Shown here piece after piece: positions 35,765-51,078 of a DNA stretch of 58,126 bases (position 1 is the first letter of the stretch; every line of letters starts with the position of its first letter). This stretch comes from a virus, in the IMG/VR virus record IMGVR_UViG_3300001847_000530, positions 1 to 58,126 of that record; one strand, 5' to 3'. Under the pieces are notes generated by a model. The model saw nothing but the letters and a program-made list of their open reading frames with translations. It was not told where the DNA came from and searched no databases. The position numbers and the translations under genes were made by a program.

Positions 35765-36136
35765 GGGCGCGTTCTGGATTCTACTTAAATGTGGCCTTCT
35801 GGGAAGCAAGCATGGATACTACGATCCATTCAACATCGTGGAAAAACACAAACGGCATTTCTAATATGCTCAAGAGCCTCTTCGCTGTCAATCAGCAGGA
35901 AGCTCAACTCGCAGCCTAAGCAGCTGTGAATGAAGTCGACGCGATACTCGCTGATGTCGACTTCATCATCTAGCGAGTCTGCTTGTTCGGTTGGTGACGT
36001 TGCGAACAAGCAGTACTCAATGTCACGTACTTCATCGTTCTGCGCAGAGTTCGATGTCGCATTACCTGCGATAAGCTTGTAGAAACTTAGCGGAAAATAC
36101 TTAAGCACAGGGGTTCGACTCCCCTCGCGTCCACCA
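35765..36136 (+). ncRNA. ssrA: tmRNA (one-piece)
   Basis: 5' end GGGCGCG (35765-35771) pairs with CGCGTCC before ACCA at 36133-36136 (one G-U). The tmRNA D-domain string GTTCTGGATTC follows the acceptor and the T-arm is AGGGG-TTCGACT-CCCCT. An internal open frame ends ...NQQEAQLAA with TAA at 35917-35919, a typical proteolysis tag end; the resume codon is probably GGC near 35854, giving a tag of about 21 residues. Length 372 nt is normal. It would rescue stalled ribosomes and tag nascent chains. Confidence 0.93.
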
Positions 36137-36505: not shown

Positions 36506-37440
36506 TGTTCTTTTGATAACAACATTTTTGTGACGGAATAAACCATTCTAATGGGGTTAACGTATGCACCACGTGAAGAACGTGGTGCAGTTTCCGAATC
36601 GATTAGTAAGTAAGGTACTATGCTGAGGCTTAGGTTGGCCAACCGAAGCTACCAGAGGTATGGCTCGTAAGCTTGAATATAGAATGACAAGCGAGTCATT
36701 ACGGTGCGGCGGCATCAATTGTCTGAATAACAGAAACTCGAAGCTGGAATGGAGGTAATCATTAATCCTCCCAATTTATTTTCATCATACTCGACTAGGC
36801 GAGTCTAAACAGAAGTATAGGCCTAGTGCGGCGGTACAGAAATGTGCCGCGACTTGCCACGCCTTGGTTCCGCTGTGCACCGGATTAAATTCTGATTAAA
36901 ATCCAGTTACCAAGAAAAATAAGTACGAGACAAAGGCTGCGGTTTCAATAGCAGAAACGCCGCATATAAATCTCGTTGCTCAAGCTATGAGTTAGCGTGG
37001 CACCCAATTTTGTTCTTTACATTAGAATTTCTTGGTGTGGCCTTTAACCAGCAAATGCGCTGTTAGCGGTCGTATTCATCGAAGTCAGCAACATCAGAAT
37101 AGCAGGACAGCTATGATGCCAAGTGGCTAATTACGACGGATGGTATGCGAAACCCGGATGTTAAGACCCGCTGTTAACTAAAATGGTCTCATCCAGTGAC
37201 AGTAATGTCTAGCAGAGCCCAGGACAACATCGATGAGCAGCCACATCAAGAATGTAGACGACACGTGGAAATACACCTCATCAGCATGAAGATGGGGAAG
37301 CTTCCTCTCGGTCTGAACCTCGCGCGGTAGAAAGATTCCGCGGCGTTTGCTAGCAAATGATGCGTACTATCGACAAATGATGGCGAGTACCCGCAATACG
37401 AGGCTCTGGAAGTTCGCAAAGACCGTTCCACATCTACCTG
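36506..37440 (+). ncRNA. Giant structured non-coding RNA (GOLLD/ROOL-like candidate)
   Basis: About 930 nt with no credible ORF and dense self-complementarity. Hairpins include TGCACCACGT/ACGTGGTGCA (36565-36589), GGAGG/CCTCC, ATGAC/GTCAT, GCGGTAC/GTGCCGC, CTTGGT/ACCAAG enclosing GGATT/AATCC, ACGAGA/TCTCGT enclosing GTTTC/GAAAC, GACA-GTAA-TGTC (GNRA loop), CCTCATC/GATGGGG and CGCGG/CCGCG. The loop ACTAGG (36794-36799) of the ACTCG/CGAGT hairpin can pair with CCTAGT (36822-36827), a pseudoknot. Location next to phage tRNAs and the size fit the GOLLD and ROOL classes. Boundaries are approximate; no terminator at the 3' end, so it might extend into the leader of the adhesin gene. Confidence 0.7.
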
Positions 37441-37459
37441 ATCTATAGATACAAACGTT

Positions 37460-38968
37460 ATGACAAAACAAACCAACAAACAAACCGCACGCAGATTGCT
37501 CTCTAGCATTCTGCTTTCTGTGTTTACAGCTACTGCTCTAGCATTACCTAGCACAGATCCTACTAACCTGCAAACCTCGGCCGGCGTGACCGTTCTGCAA
37601 GCAACGAATGCGCTGACGATCACTGCACCAAACCGTGCTGTCCTGAACTGGACAAACTTCGGATCCGGAACGGACACGATTTCGCGAAGTGACTTGCTGA
37701 CATATCAGCTGCCTGATGCAAAGTCATCAGTACTAAATATCGTCACTGGTTCTGCACAATCGATGATCGATGGATATATTTCCTCAAATGGAAAAGTTTA
37801 TATCATCAATCCTAACGGCATTGTCATCGGAGCAAATTCGCGCTTTGATGTGGCCTCGCTAGCACTATCTGCTAGCGATAATCCAGTAGCTGCTCAGCTG
37901 CAATACCTGCGTGATGGTACTGTTCCATCCGAGGTTGGAATTCGGAGCGCATTTGGCTCGCTGACAGTCAATAGCTCAGCAATGATTCTAAGCCCAAACA
38001 TCACGCTTCTTGCCAAGAATGTATATGTCGGTGCTGCGATGTTCGGTGGTGCAACCACAATCAATGCTGACGGAGATGTCCAGCTTGGTGTGCAAGGCGG
38101 CTCGACGGTCTTCGGAGGTCTGACAATCACCAATGCCAGCGGAAATACAGTGCTGAGCATGGCAGGATCGACAGTCAATTCAACTGGTCCAATCGTTGCA
38201 ACCAGTGATCGTGGTAATGTTCTCAGTCAGGCAGGATCGCGCCTTGTGACTAAGAATCTAACTGTTACCTCGAATTACGGTGCTGTCAATCTTGGTGCTG
38301 ACGGTGCTCTGATTACAACCGCAACCGCTCCAACAGTCACGATTGCTCTTGATGGTCTGACACCTAATCCATCAGTTGGTGGATCTTCGACTGGCGCATT
38401 TGCTGTGACATCACCCGCATCTTTCAAGGTTGATGGAGTTACTGGTGTCAGCAATTCGCCATTCAGCTTTACGTCTGGCGGAGATCTTACACTGGGTGCT
38501 GTTCACCTTGATGTGACCAGTGCAACGACGTTTGCAGGAAAGACAGTCACAGATACCACAAACGGAATCTTCGTTTACGGCCCAGTGCTGTTTTCTGCTA
38601 CTGGTGGAGATATTTCAATCACCAAAGGCAATCATAGCTTTGGTCCTGTCAGCGTATTTGCCAACGGAAATGCGACAGTTTATGAAGCTGCTGCTCTCAA
38701 TTTGAATACTGTCAATGTCAAGAATCTTGTGCTGAAAACAGGAGAATACTTTTTTCAGACACCGACAACAGCAAGTCTCTTAGCCAATTCTTTCAATTTG
38801 ACTGCCTCAGGTGCCGTTTCATTGTTTACTGGAAACATCGCCTCGGGTCTTACGATCAGTGCCGGTTCATCAAGTGTAGATCTGAGCAGACTCAGTATTG
38901 CCACGAATTTGAACGGCATCGCACCAACAGTGACAACGACCGGTGCTGTTGGACAACCTAATCCTTAA
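37460..38968 (+). CDS. Filamentous-haemagglutinin-type TPS-domain exported protein
   Basis: 502 aa. A signal peptide (LLSSILLSVFTATALA) precedes a two-partner-secretion domain: AITAPNRAVLNWTNF-like strand (ALTITAPNRAVLNWTNFG), then SSNGKVYIINPNGIVIGANS, the hallmark NPNG(I/V) motif. The rest is repetitive beta-helix sequence (GNVLSQAGSRLVTKNLTVTS; VTDTTNGIFVYGPVLFSATG), far shorter than bacterial haemagglutinins. It should adopt a beta-helix on the cell surface or virion; no TpsB-type partner with POTRA domains is visible in the window. Confidence 0.85.
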   Translation: MTKQTNKQTARRLLSSILLSVFTATALALPSTDPTNLQTSAGVTVLQATNALTITAPNRAVLNWTNFGSGTDTISRSDLLTYQLPDAKSSVLNIVTGSAQSMIDGYISSNGKVYIINPNGIVIGANSRFDVASLALSASDNPVAAQLQYLRDGTVPSEVGIRSAFGSLTVNSSAMILSPNITLLAKNVYVGAAMFGGATTINADGDVQLGVQGGSTVFGGLTITNASGNTVLSMAGSTVNSTGPIVATSDRGNVLSQAGSRLVTKNLTVTSNYGAVNLGADGALITTATAPTVTIALDGLTPNPSVGGSSTGAFAVTSPASFKVDGVTGVSNSPFSFTSGGDLTLGAVHLDVTSATTFAGKTVTDTTNGIFVYGPVLFSATGGDISITKGNHSFGPVSVFANGNATVYEAAALNLNTVNVKNLVLKTGEYFFQTPTTASLLANSFNLTASGAVSLFTGNIASGLTISAGSSSVDLSRLSIATNLNGIAPTVTTTGAVGQPNP

Positions 38969-38974
38969 TAAATA
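38967..38974 (+). promoter_or_regulatory. Late-type promoter (AATAAATA)
   Basis: AATAAATA overlapping the adhesin stop, with the next ATG 8 nt after its last base (38982). Confidence 0.55.
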
Positions 38975-38981
38975 GTTAAGT

Positions 38982-39644
38982 ATGAAAAAGCTAATCGCAT
39001 TGTTTGCTGCGCTATCTTCGATTGCAGCAGCTCAAGTCACAACCGAACTGACAGCAGGTTACCGCTCGAAGGATTTTTCTTTCGGTAAGGTAGCATCTAC
39101 TGTCAGCGCTTATACCACTACTGCTGATATTCGCATCAATAGTTTTCGCCTGGGTACAAGCGTGCAGGATCAACTGACACTCAAGAGCTCAAAGTTGTAT
39201 CAGCTCGATTTGATCGGCGGATACAAGTTTTTCTCATCTCTTGCTGATGTCGAGTTTGGAACGAGGTATGTCACTAAGGGCATCTTTGCCAAGTACGATA
39301 TGAAGAATCACTGGCGCCCATTCGTGGAAGTCAGCAAAGGTATCTTCAGTGTCCGCAGTCAGATGGATCTTGAGGCTAAGACATCGAACATCGAGGGCGC
39401 GCTGAAACGTGCTCTTCCGCTCGGTGCTGGTTTCAAGTTCACGCCATCTGTTTATGTCGGATATACCGATGCGAATGACGCACTGCCACACACCATCAAG
39501 GAAATCAAGTACACCAACGTGTACTACGGTGGTTCTGGCGATGTCTCATGGAAGTGGGCTACAGCTGGTCTGTACACGATCCATACCAAGATCGACAAGA
39601 AATACACCAACGGCTATCGTGCTGGTGTTGCTCTGAAGTTTTGA
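38982..39644 (+). CDS. Outer-membrane beta-barrel-like protein
   Basis: 220 aa. Signal peptide (MKKLIALFAALSSIAAAQ), then alternating amphipathic strands (TELTAGYRSKDFSFGK, LYQLDLIGGYKFF, VEFGTRYVTKGIF, WATAGLYTIHTKIDK) and a C-terminal VALKF with terminal Phe, the outer-membrane insertion signature. Probable small barrel; whether it exports the upstream adhesin is unknown, and it lacks POTRA domains. Confidence 0.75.
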   Translation: MKKLIALFAALSSIAAAQVTTELTAGYRSKDFSFGKVASTVSAYTTTADIRINSFRLGTSVQDQLTLKSSKLYQLDLIGGYKFFSSLADVEFGTRYVTKGIFAKYDMKNHWRPFVEVSKGIFSVRSQMDLEAKTSNIEGALKRALPLGAGFKFTPSVYVGYTDANDALPHTIKEIKYTNVYYGGSGDVSWKWATAGLYTIHTKIDKKYTNGYRAGVALKF

Positions 39645-39650
39645 ATTTCC

Positions 39651-39670
39651 GCTGATCAATTCCGATCAGC
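39651..39670. repeat. 7-bp hairpin between exported-protein genes
   Basis: GCTGATC-AATTCC-GATCAGC; no T-run. Possible mRNA processing or stability element. Confidence 0.45.
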
Positions 39671-39688
39671 AAAACAAAGGAAAAACGT

Positions 39689-39916
39689 ATGAAGAAATAT
39701 ATCGCTATTGCTGTAGCAACTGCCTCGCTGGCAATTGCTGCTGAAAAAGGTGAAAAGAAAAACGGTCCAGTCCTAACCGATGAGCAGAAAGCAATCATCG
39801 CGAAGTATGACACGAACAAGGATGGAAAACTCGACAAAGAAGAACGAGCAAAGATGACGCCGGAAGATGCAGCTAAACTGCCGCCTCCGCCTGATCGTAA
39901 GAAAAAGAAAGACTGA
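39689..39916 (+). CDS. Exported EF-hand protein
   Basis: 75 aa. Signal peptide (YIAIAVATASLAIAA), one canonical EF-hand loop DTNKDGKLDKEE, basic Pro-rich tail PPPPDRKKKKD. One of the few genes with an AAAGGA sequence 9 nt before ATG. Likely periplasmic or surface calcium binder. Confidence 0.72.
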   Translation: MKKYIAIAVATASLAIAAEKGEKKNGPVLTDEQKAIIAKYDTNKDGKLDKEERAKMTPEDAAKLPPPPDRKKKKD

Positions 39917-39938
39917 TTTCTTCATAATTAACTAATCA

Positions 39939-39971
39939 AGTGGCTGCATCAAAAGTGCAGCCACTTTTTTG
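39939..39971 (+). terminator. Rho-independent terminator
   Basis: AGTGGCTGCA (39939-39948), 7-nt loop, TGCAGCCACT, then TTTTTT. Strong and directly followed by a new promoter. Confidence 0.92.
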
Positions 39972-49450: not shown

Positions 49451-50275
49451 ATGAAGAAACTGCTAACAGCCACACTACTGCTATCTTTACTTTTTAGCGG
49501 CTGTGCTTCAGTTTCGCGCAGTCCACGCATTCTTGAAATGCCGCGACTGCAGGAAAGCCCGCTACAAAAGCAGCTGTTCGCGCTGCCTGCAATCGATGGC
49601 TCAAAGATCACGATTGCTGTCTATAACTTCGCAGACAAGACTGGACAGCGCAAGACTGTAGATACCTACGCATCGTTTTCATCAGCAGTTACTCAAGGCG
49701 CAGACAGCTGGCTGATCGATGCGCTGCGCCTGGCTGGAAACAATCATTGGTTTCAGGTGCTCGAGCGTTCCTCGCTGGACAATCTTGTCAAGGAACGACA
49801 GCTCATCGCGCAGACTCGCGAGTCGTTTCAAGGCAAGGATGCAGAAAAGCTTTCACCGCTGCTGTTCGCGGGCATCATCGCAGAAGGCGGAATCATCGGA
49901 TACGACACTAACGTCTTTACTGGTGGCGCGGGCGCAAGCTTGCTGGGTATTTCGAGCTCGACACAGTACCGCAAAGATGTAGTCACTGTTTCCCTGCGCT
50001 TCATTTCAGTACAGACAGGCGAGGTGATGCTCTCAACAGCAGTGACAAAGACAATTACCTCGGTTGCTCTTTCAGGCAACCTATTCAAATTTTATGAGCA
50101 TGGAGTGACACCAGCAGAATCAGAACTAGGGTTCACAGCAAACGAGCCGAATACAATCGCGGTACGTTCTGCTATCGACCAAGCAGTGATTGAAATCATC
50201 AATCAAGGCGCTAAGACTGGCCTCTGGAAATTCGCAGTGACAGGTAAACCACAACCAACCAACCAAAGCAAATGA
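49451..50275 (+). CDS. csgG: CsgG-like curli secretion pore lipoprotein
   Basis: 274 aa, same length as E. coli CsgG (277). Lipobox LLFSGC (Cys 18). Conserved blocks: ITIAVYNFADKTGQRK, VTQGADSWLIDAL, WFQVLERSSLDNLVKERQLI, IIAEGGIIGYDTNVFTGGAG, TQYRKDVVTVSLRFISVQTG and VGYTSNEP-like LGFTANEPN. The constriction loop reads VDTYASFSSAV where E. coli has PYPASNFSTAV: the Tyr and Phe remain but the Asn is lost and the loop is one residue shorter. It should assemble as a nonameric outer-membrane channel. Overlaps the curlin gene by 4 nt. Confidence 0.93.
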   Translation: MKKLLTATLLLSLLFSGCASVSRSPRILEMPRLQESPLQKQLFALPAIDGSKITIAVYNFADKTGQRKTVDTYASFSSAVTQGADSWLIDALRLAGNNHWFQVLERSSLDNLVKERQLIAQTRESFQGKDAEKLSPLLFAGIIAEGGIIGYDTNVFTGGAGASLLGISSSTQYRKDVVTVSLRFISVQTGEVMLSTAVTKTITSVALSGNLFKFYEHGVTPAESELGFTANEPNTIAVRSAIDQAVIEIINQGAKTGLWKFAVTGKPQPTNQSK

Positions 50276-51078
50276 AAAATAAAGTCGTAGCGCTATTCAC
50301 CCTGCTTTTGCTCCTCACTGCGACAACTCGAGGACAGAATCAGATCTACGTGAATCAGATCACCACGAGTGGCACAACCACTCTCGTTCAGGTAGGAAGC
50401 CTGAACAAAATCGGCTCCTCGCAGACACCAAGCGACATCACGGGAGACAACATCGTCTTTGAAATGCGTCAGATCGGTGACAGCAATACGACTGACTTCT
50501 CGATTGCTAGCGCGAACAACCTGAAGTTCATCTCGGCATATACTGGCAACAGCAACACGCAGAAGTACTACTTCAGCGGTGCTAGCAACAATATGAACTT
50601 CTCGGTGGCAGGCAACAGCAACTCGTTCTTGCTGAACAAGGATACCACAGTAGATCATACCTCGAATACTGACAGCTCGAAAGCCACACTTCAGAACTCA
50701 GACCTGAAGTTTACTGTCACGGGTAATTCCAATACCTTCAAGTTCGCAATCGACTCAGGTAAATACAACTACCTCGATTACAACATCACGGGCAACTCAA
50801 ATACCATCAAGTCCACACAGATCGGCAATACCTCTGGATCTGCTGCTAAGGACGGGCATGAGCAGACAGTCAACATCACTGGATCTTCCAATGATCTGAC
50901 AATCTATCAGGCAGGTATCGAAAAGCAGCTGTTTAACTACACGCTGACAGGATCAACGAACACCGTGAAGATCGTGCAGACACAGGCAGGTTATGCTCCA
51001 GTAATGACTACAACTGGAACAAATGGCCCTGCGGGAACAGCACAGACCACAAATTCGATTACTCCTCCAACACAGTAA
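50272..51078 (+). CDS. Curlin-like repeat protein (CsgA/CsgB-type amyloid subunit candidate)
   Basis: 268 aa. Signal peptide (VVALFTLLLLLTATTRG), then at least eight imperfect repeats built on G-x-(S/T)-N followed by alternating residues and often Q-x-G: IGDSNTTDFSIA, TGNSNTQKYYFSG, AGNSNSFLL, TGNSNTFKFAID, TGNSNTIKSTQIG, TGSSNDLTIYQAG and TGSTNTVKIVQTQAG. Curlins use S-x5-Q-x-G-x-x-N-x5-Q. The match is looser here, but the neighbouring csgF and csgG make it the natural substrate. Confidence 0.8.
   Translation: MKNKVVALFTLLLLLTATTRGQNQIYVNQITTSGTTTLVQVGSLNKIGSSQTPSDITGDNIVFEMRQIGDSNTTDFSIASANNLKFISAYTGNSNTQKYYFSGASNNMNFSVAGNSNSFLLNKDTTVDHTSNTDSSKATLQNSDLKFTVTGNSNTFKFAIDSGKYNYLDYNITGNSNTIKSTQIGNTSGSAAKDGHEQTVNITGSSNDLTIYQAGIEKQLFNYTLTGSTNTVKIVQTQAGYAPVMTTTGTNGPAGTAQTTNSITPPTQ

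Follow-up and report, generated by a model that had tools for sequence, protein, structure and literature searches.

A Predicted Miniature TpsA-Type Exoprotein in a Phage of the Wider T4 Kin and Its Putative Export through a Host Pore

The TPS Locus and Its Genome Setting

IMG/VR virus record IMGVR_UViG_3300001847_000530, possibly a fragment, was analyzed over its whole length of 58,126 bases, hereafter the window. The record is a member of the wider T4 kin: the UvsX it encodes shares 63% identity with that of Phage C48C1, it has genes for a helicase loader, the small subunit of ribonucleotide reductase, and a DNA ligase, and ARAGORN found a tmRNA and ten tRNAs. The same record also encodes CsgF, CsgG, a FecR protein, and a CHASE2-cyclase, the last with 42% identical relatives in Methylophilales phage Melnitz, a 40% identical relative in Pelagibacter phage HTVC008M, and relatives encoded in 596 IMG/VR stretches. 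The gene addressed here, which encodes a protein with a two-partner-secretion (TPS) domain, lies between the tRNA/tmRNA region and the DNA ligase gene. It is the first of three open reading frames (37460-38968, 38982-39644, and 39689-39916), all of which were found where an earlier reading of the letters (the sequence-only reading) had placed them. The features of the locus are listed below.

37444..37451, + strand: T4-like late-promoter-like octamer TATAGATA, its end 8 nt upstream of the TPS start codon
37460..38968, + strand: predicted miniature TpsA-type exoprotein, 502 aa (Pfam/NCBIfam domain, profile matches, AlphaFold2, VIA)
37460..37549, + strand: Sec-type signal peptide, residues 1-30 (by eye)
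37586..38281, + strand: TPS secretion domain, residues 43-274 (PF05860; VIA matches to HxuA, HMW1, EtpA, and FHA)
37808-37822, + strand: NPNGI, residues 117-121 (read in the translation)
38876..38926, + strand: conserved C-terminal motif, here VDLSRLSIATNLNGIAP, common to Opitutia TpsA C-termini
38967..38974, + strand: late-promoter-like octamer AATAAATA, its end 7 nt upstream of the barrel ATG
38982..39644, + strand: predicted outer-membrane beta-barrel, 220 aa, 12 strands, KdgM-like, no POTRA (AlphaFold2, Foldseek, VIA)
39689..39916, + strand: small signal-peptide protein, 75 aa, with one EF-hand loop DTNKDGKLDKEE; a neighbor, not part of the pair
39938..39966, + strand: intrinsic terminator-like hairpin, 12-pair stem plus T-run, closing the three-gene run

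The hairpin bears out the terminator noticed in the sequence-only reading, which had also joined the three genes into one cluster. This grouping did not hold for the third gene. Its reading frame and single loop are present as described, but the match to the EF-hand family PF00036 (21.1 bits) fell below the cut-off of 25.4. Moreover, the gene is absent behind the TPS-barrel pair in the related contigs L085-L087, L089, L101, and L102, and the loci of its own 35 IMG/VR relatives gave no match to the TPS or barrel profile. Thus, we rejected the EF-hand gene as a cluster member, as it is unrelated to the TPS-barrel pair in these relatives.

A TpsA-Family Protein with a Predicted TPS Fold

The product of 37460-38968 is, from its domain matches and structural model, a predicted exoprotein of the TpsA family with the TPS fold. 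The 502-residue frame and the NPNGI motif were confirmed, and the leader, read by eye, has a charged start, a hydrophobic stretch, and a small-x-small site before LP. The TPS domain, first proposed from the motif, scored 50.8 bits in Pfam (PF05860; cut-off 33.5) and 52.2 bits in NCBIfam (TIGR01901, adhes_NPXG; cut-off 29.1), with no TPS match in any of 14 control genomes. A three-sequence profile had four matches in the PDB up to an E value of 0.1, and each was a TPS protein, namely EtpA, HxuA (two), and HMW1 (E 7e-11 to 1e-9). Neither Pfam nor NCBIfam matched a toxin, anchor, effector, or known binding domain in the protein, and a PHROG search at E 0.1 gave no match for it, the barrel, or the EF-hand protein.

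Structure prediction, which the sequence-only reading had named as a check and in which the lack of a TPS fold would have refuted its view, recovered the fold. The AlphaFold2 model, built with 11 sequences, is a right-handed beta-helix (pLDDT 90.0, pTM 0.85), and the 17 best rows of its VIA-align comparison were all TPS proteins, led by HxuA (Z 25.0, rmsd 2.3, 239 aligned) and including HMW1 (Z 24.1), EtpA (Z 23.9), and the FHA secretion domains (Z 21.6). The protein combines the TPS domain, a signal peptide (by eye), the NPNG motif, and a beta-helix (in the predicted model), as expected of a TpsA protein. In relatives, the NPNG motif is altered to NGSG (L101) or NPGG (L097). The description of the protein as a haemagglutinin fragment was wrong, because both its length (502-503 aa) and its C-terminus are kept in close relatives; in addition, the C-terminal motif DLS.LS..NL and the N-terminal leader are common to the first eight phage proteins.

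Relatives in Phages and in Opitutia

Among the CHASE2-cyclase relatives, 50 of 80 loci, mostly longer contigs, were searched, and a TPS match was found in three. With the TPS protein or the barrel as a lone query, scans of viral contigs returned nothing, and alignments of close relatives succeeded: successive scans of IMG/VR yielded 13 and then 24 contigs with TPS relatives, the 24 including the 13. INPHARED gave no match at E 0.01 with the TPS protein as query and one marginal match (E 0.06) with a relative as query. The complete distinct phage proteins range from 502 to 657 aa, and their reading frames are intact. Pairwise dN/dS of the TPS gene among L085, L087, and L089 was 0.08-0.13, and values against the window gene itself were saturated or partly not computable. 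By this measure, the gene is under purifying selection. In one TPS-bearing phage contig, a 114-aa protein (L097:13327-13668) has a PEP-CTERM sorting signal that passed the Pfam cut-off (22.1 versus 20.7 bits).

When an eight-sequence alignment of the phage proteins was run against 84,980 species genomes, three bacterial relatives were found, all in Verrucomicrobiota: L113 (1208 aa), L115 (1623 aa), and L114 (686 aa, where the contig end cuts the protein). Within the same bacterial class, Opitutia, 38 of 286 genomes matched this alignment at E 1e-15. We then placed the N-terminal part of 28 proteins, eight from phages and 20 from bacteria, in an unrooted maximum-likelihood tree; the eight phage proteins had been picked before the wider scan added further distinct ones, and class loci with no N-terminal match were left out. 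All eight phage proteins formed one clade (support 98/95) that was sister to L113-L115, with support of 100/100 for the joint group, which stood apart from 17 further TpsA-like proteins from this class.

At the N-terminus, L113-L115 are the nearest relatives; L113 and L115 matched the phage profile there with 157 and 151 bits, and in these two proteins the likeness extends to the C-terminal motif, with 51 and 48 bits over about the last 230 profile positions; C-terminal parts in G066 and G082 matched the phage profile as well. The Opitutia proteins differ from the phage protein in their length of 1208 and 1623 aa and in their DUF5649 repeats. The TPS protein is thus closely akin to TpsA proteins of Opitutia (Verrucomicrobiota). 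We infer that the repeat middle was cut down in the phage lineage; the direction of the shortening is unproven because the tree is unrooted.

Late-Promoter-Like Octamers

The T4 late-promoter consensus is TATAAATA. Octamers with at most one mismatch to it also lie 8-9 nt before the TPS ATG in L085, L087, L089, and L101, and the TPS starts of L092, L095, and L097 (three of eight relatives) have no octamer at one mismatch. Of 74 ORFs picked automatically across the window, some of which are surely not genes, 12 have such an octamer ending 4-22 nt upstream of the start, compared with 0.7% of random positions; nine of the 12 octamers end 6-9 nt before the start. Shine-Dalgarno-like strings are rare (6/74 ORF starts), and the two patterns hint at late mRNAs that are leaderless. 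The octamer before the TPS start weakly suggests that the TPS transcripts of the window's lineage may be late and near-leaderless. Speculatively, such timing would suit a protein acting on the dying cell or on the debris and neighbors of that cell better than early superinfection exclusion.

TpsB Pores and Proposed Export through the Host

TpsA-type proteins normally leave the cell through a dedicated TpsB pore (type Vb secretion). The sequence-only reading had called a TpsB not evident, and our search of the rest of the window agreed, with no match to PF03865 (ShlB-type TpsB) over the cut-off. The same held for 19 related records, 15 of them with TPS, and for nine further TPS-bearing records, one of 297 kb. 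Altogether, 0 of 25 TPS-bearing phage records had a TpsB over the cut-off; these records may be fragments, so that a TpsB could sit in a missing part. The single match below the cut-off was one of 11.7 bits in G058. The search did find the family in 129 of the 286 Opitutia genomes and in the positive control, G066. Unlike the phage gene, two of the three closest bacterial TpsA genes have a ShlB-type TpsB next door, in divergent orientation (L114, 108.7 bits; L115, 100.1 bits). As no cognate TpsB passed the cut-off in these records, we filed the TPS gene as a variant rather than as a complete two-partner system.

The tmRNA at 35765-36136 of the window carries a long predicted tag, GISNMLKSLFAVNQQEAQLAA, and the tag in L086 is similar in length and ends. 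An assignment of the host through tmRNA tags failed: the phage tags (GISN...QLAA) are unlike those of 25 loci of the bacterial class, which are mostly of the form AN.ELALAA and in nearly all cases only 9-15 residues long. Nothing independent therefore ties the phage to a TpsB-bearing host.

Because the TPS gene has a barrel next door but no TpsB, we proposed that the phage probably borrows a host pore and thereby alters the surface of the cell it infects. That the product is a late-made miniature TpsA exported through a host TpsB is a reading to which we give slightly better than even chances, with its export, surface location, and function all reasoned rather than observed. The altered NPNG motifs of L101 and L097 and the octamer missing from three relatives count against it. 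In this view, a single capture from a Verrucomicrobiota-like bacterium would have brought a TpsA gene into the phage lineage, and its repeat middle would then have been cut down. A T4-type late promoter would drive the gene late in infection, Sec would export the product, and a TpsB of the host would take it through the outer membrane for surface display or release. Once outside, it may coat or crosslink infected cells, or it may compete with the host's adhesin for the pore, and the barrel would sit in the outer membrane as a surface protein in its own right.

There is a different reading, which we consider unlikely, in which the TPS protein stays periplasmic or stalls in the host TpsB and thereby shuts off a host TPS adhesin or contact-dependent weapon. 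In its favor, the phage protein keeps the TpsB-docking domain and the C-terminal motif and not the long repeat middle, and no effector domain was matched. Nevertheless, a beta-helix of 502-655 aa is long enough for a functional exoprotein, and nothing in the data tells jamming from export.

If export through a host TpsB is true, lytic phages export their own cargo via a host type Vb pore, a route of cell-surface takeover of which we found no report. In particular, a search of the PMC literature by title and start of abstract, with subscription journals mostly outside its scope, found no report of a phage-borne TPS exoprotein among the top-ranked papers, and the word "hemagglutinin" is absent from the main text of PMC7029224 and PMC9004378. 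It would also show that a very long bacterial adhesin is reducible to a delivery domain plus a C-terminal motif, and it is directly testable, with one gene and one predicted host pore. The phage protein resembles the type Vb TpsA proteins HxuA, HMW1, EtpA, and FHA in TPS sequence and fold, NPNG motif, leader, and beta-helix. Unlike them, it is only 502 aa long, is phage-borne, has no TpsB in its record, and matches no known binding domain.

The sequence-only reading had further held that two unrelated adhesion systems, TPS and curli, serve the phage in remodeling the cell surface. The curli genes, csgF and csgG, are indeed present in the same record, and the two-system view is a reasonable inference. 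Pelagimyophages (PMC7029224) and methylophage Melnitz (PMC9004378) share csgF and csgG with this record, and CsgA/CsgB are reported missing from related phages (PMC9004378, PMC7029224). Two roles have been put forward for the phage curli genes, sibling capture in the first of these papers (PMC7029224) and control of lysis in the second (PMC9004378). Melnitz further resembles the present record in having a tmRNA, and its authors read a putative S-layer gene of this phage as protection against superinfection (PMC9004378). Between csgG and fecR, the window encodes a secreted-looking protein of 268 aa (50272-51078) with curlin-like Q-x-G-x-x-N stretches seen by eye and no match in a Pfam search, possibly a curli subunit.

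The Neighboring 12-Stranded Barrel

The second gene had been read as a barrel-like protein ending in Phe, and this description stood: the 220-aa sequence ends in ...LKF, and AlphaFold2 together with Foldseek and VIA agrees on a barrel. The model (pLDDT 77.9) has twelve long strands, counted from the strand list, and its best solved match is the KdgM porin 4pr7 (Z 18.0, rmsd 2.2, 163 aligned, on the predicted model). The barrel is thus like the monomeric 12-stranded porins of the KdgM/NanC type in predicted fold, size, and strand number, but unlike them in sequence, as it has no Pfam match. At E 0.1, it matched nothing in Pfam, PHROG, or NCBIfam, and thus no POTRA or ShlB family, and it had no match at E 1 among 50,697 phage records. 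With 220 aa, twelve long strands, and no POTRA or ShlB match, it was rejected as a TpsB/Omp85 protein. A source of the barrel in the same bacterial class was unsupported (0/286 class genomes, in an empty search that had no positive control). Pairwise dN/dS of the barrel gene among L085, L087, and L089 was 0.04-0.08.

We also considered whether the barrel itself is the translocator or anchor, such that the phages carry a self-contained, POTRA-less two-partner system of a new type. Barrels of 12 strands translocate in autotransporters such as NalP, and NalP, itself 12-stranded, matched the barrel model with Z 15.5. The window and 6 of the 24 TPS-bearing contigs have the barrel gene directly behind the TPS gene, and in L085, L087, and L089 the barrel ATG and the TPS stop overlap. 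Ten more of the 24 contigs have a barrel match elsewhere in the record, with 37.7 bits in three, 45.3 bits in two, and just 17 bits in the other five. However, the best fold match is a porin, the sequence lacks any POTRA or ShlB match, 8 of the 24 TPS-bearing contigs have no barrel match, the 297-kb record among them, and G007, G012, G015, G020, and G025 have the barrel with no TPS match. A strict TPS-barrel partnership was therefore rejected, and a translocator role of the barrel seems improbable. The barrel thus forms a phage family of its own, coupled to the TPS gene in one lineage.

Virion Component and Passenger Gene

That the TPS protein is a virion component, a fibre, spike, or decoration built on its beta-helix, is very unlikely. 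Tailspikes are beta-helices too, and two appeared in the VIA list (HK620, Z 11.9; CBA120 TSP1, Z 11.6), but TPS-domain matches were far stronger (Z 25 versus 12), a Sec-type leader is kept in 8/8 aligned phage proteins, and no structural module was seen in the region between the tRNA/tmRNA genes and the DNA ligase gene. The accessory position beside tRNA genes and the absence from most related records would suit a recently acquired bacterial gene with no function in the phage, but the single phage clade, the spread over 24 contigs, the low dN/dS, and the intact frames make such a passenger highly improbable, and we disfavored it.

Noncoding Blocks upstream of the TPS Gene

Three noncoding elements were observed between the tmRNA and the TPS gene. 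The first block (36506-36784) shows about 77% nucleotide identity in the diverged related phages L009, L086, L089, L095, L107, and L109 and ends in a terminator-like hairpin. It matched the manA RNA over the full length below the threshold (32.5 bits, E 2.6e-6, gathering 55.2), its counterpart in L095 scored 33.9 bits, and it looks like a divergent manA-type RNA. The second is a Pistol self-cleaving ribozyme at 36789-36856 of the window (52.1 bits), which was also found in L085 and L086. The third block, of about 190 nt (37051-37241), gave no match in an Rfam search. It is 81-91% identical in L086, L087, L089, and L101, and the TPS protein beside it is only 42-48% identical in the same loci. 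Its consensus fold has an energy of -45.8 kcal/mol, and 7 of 47 pairs are changed on both sides; we regard this block as a candidate new structured RNA.
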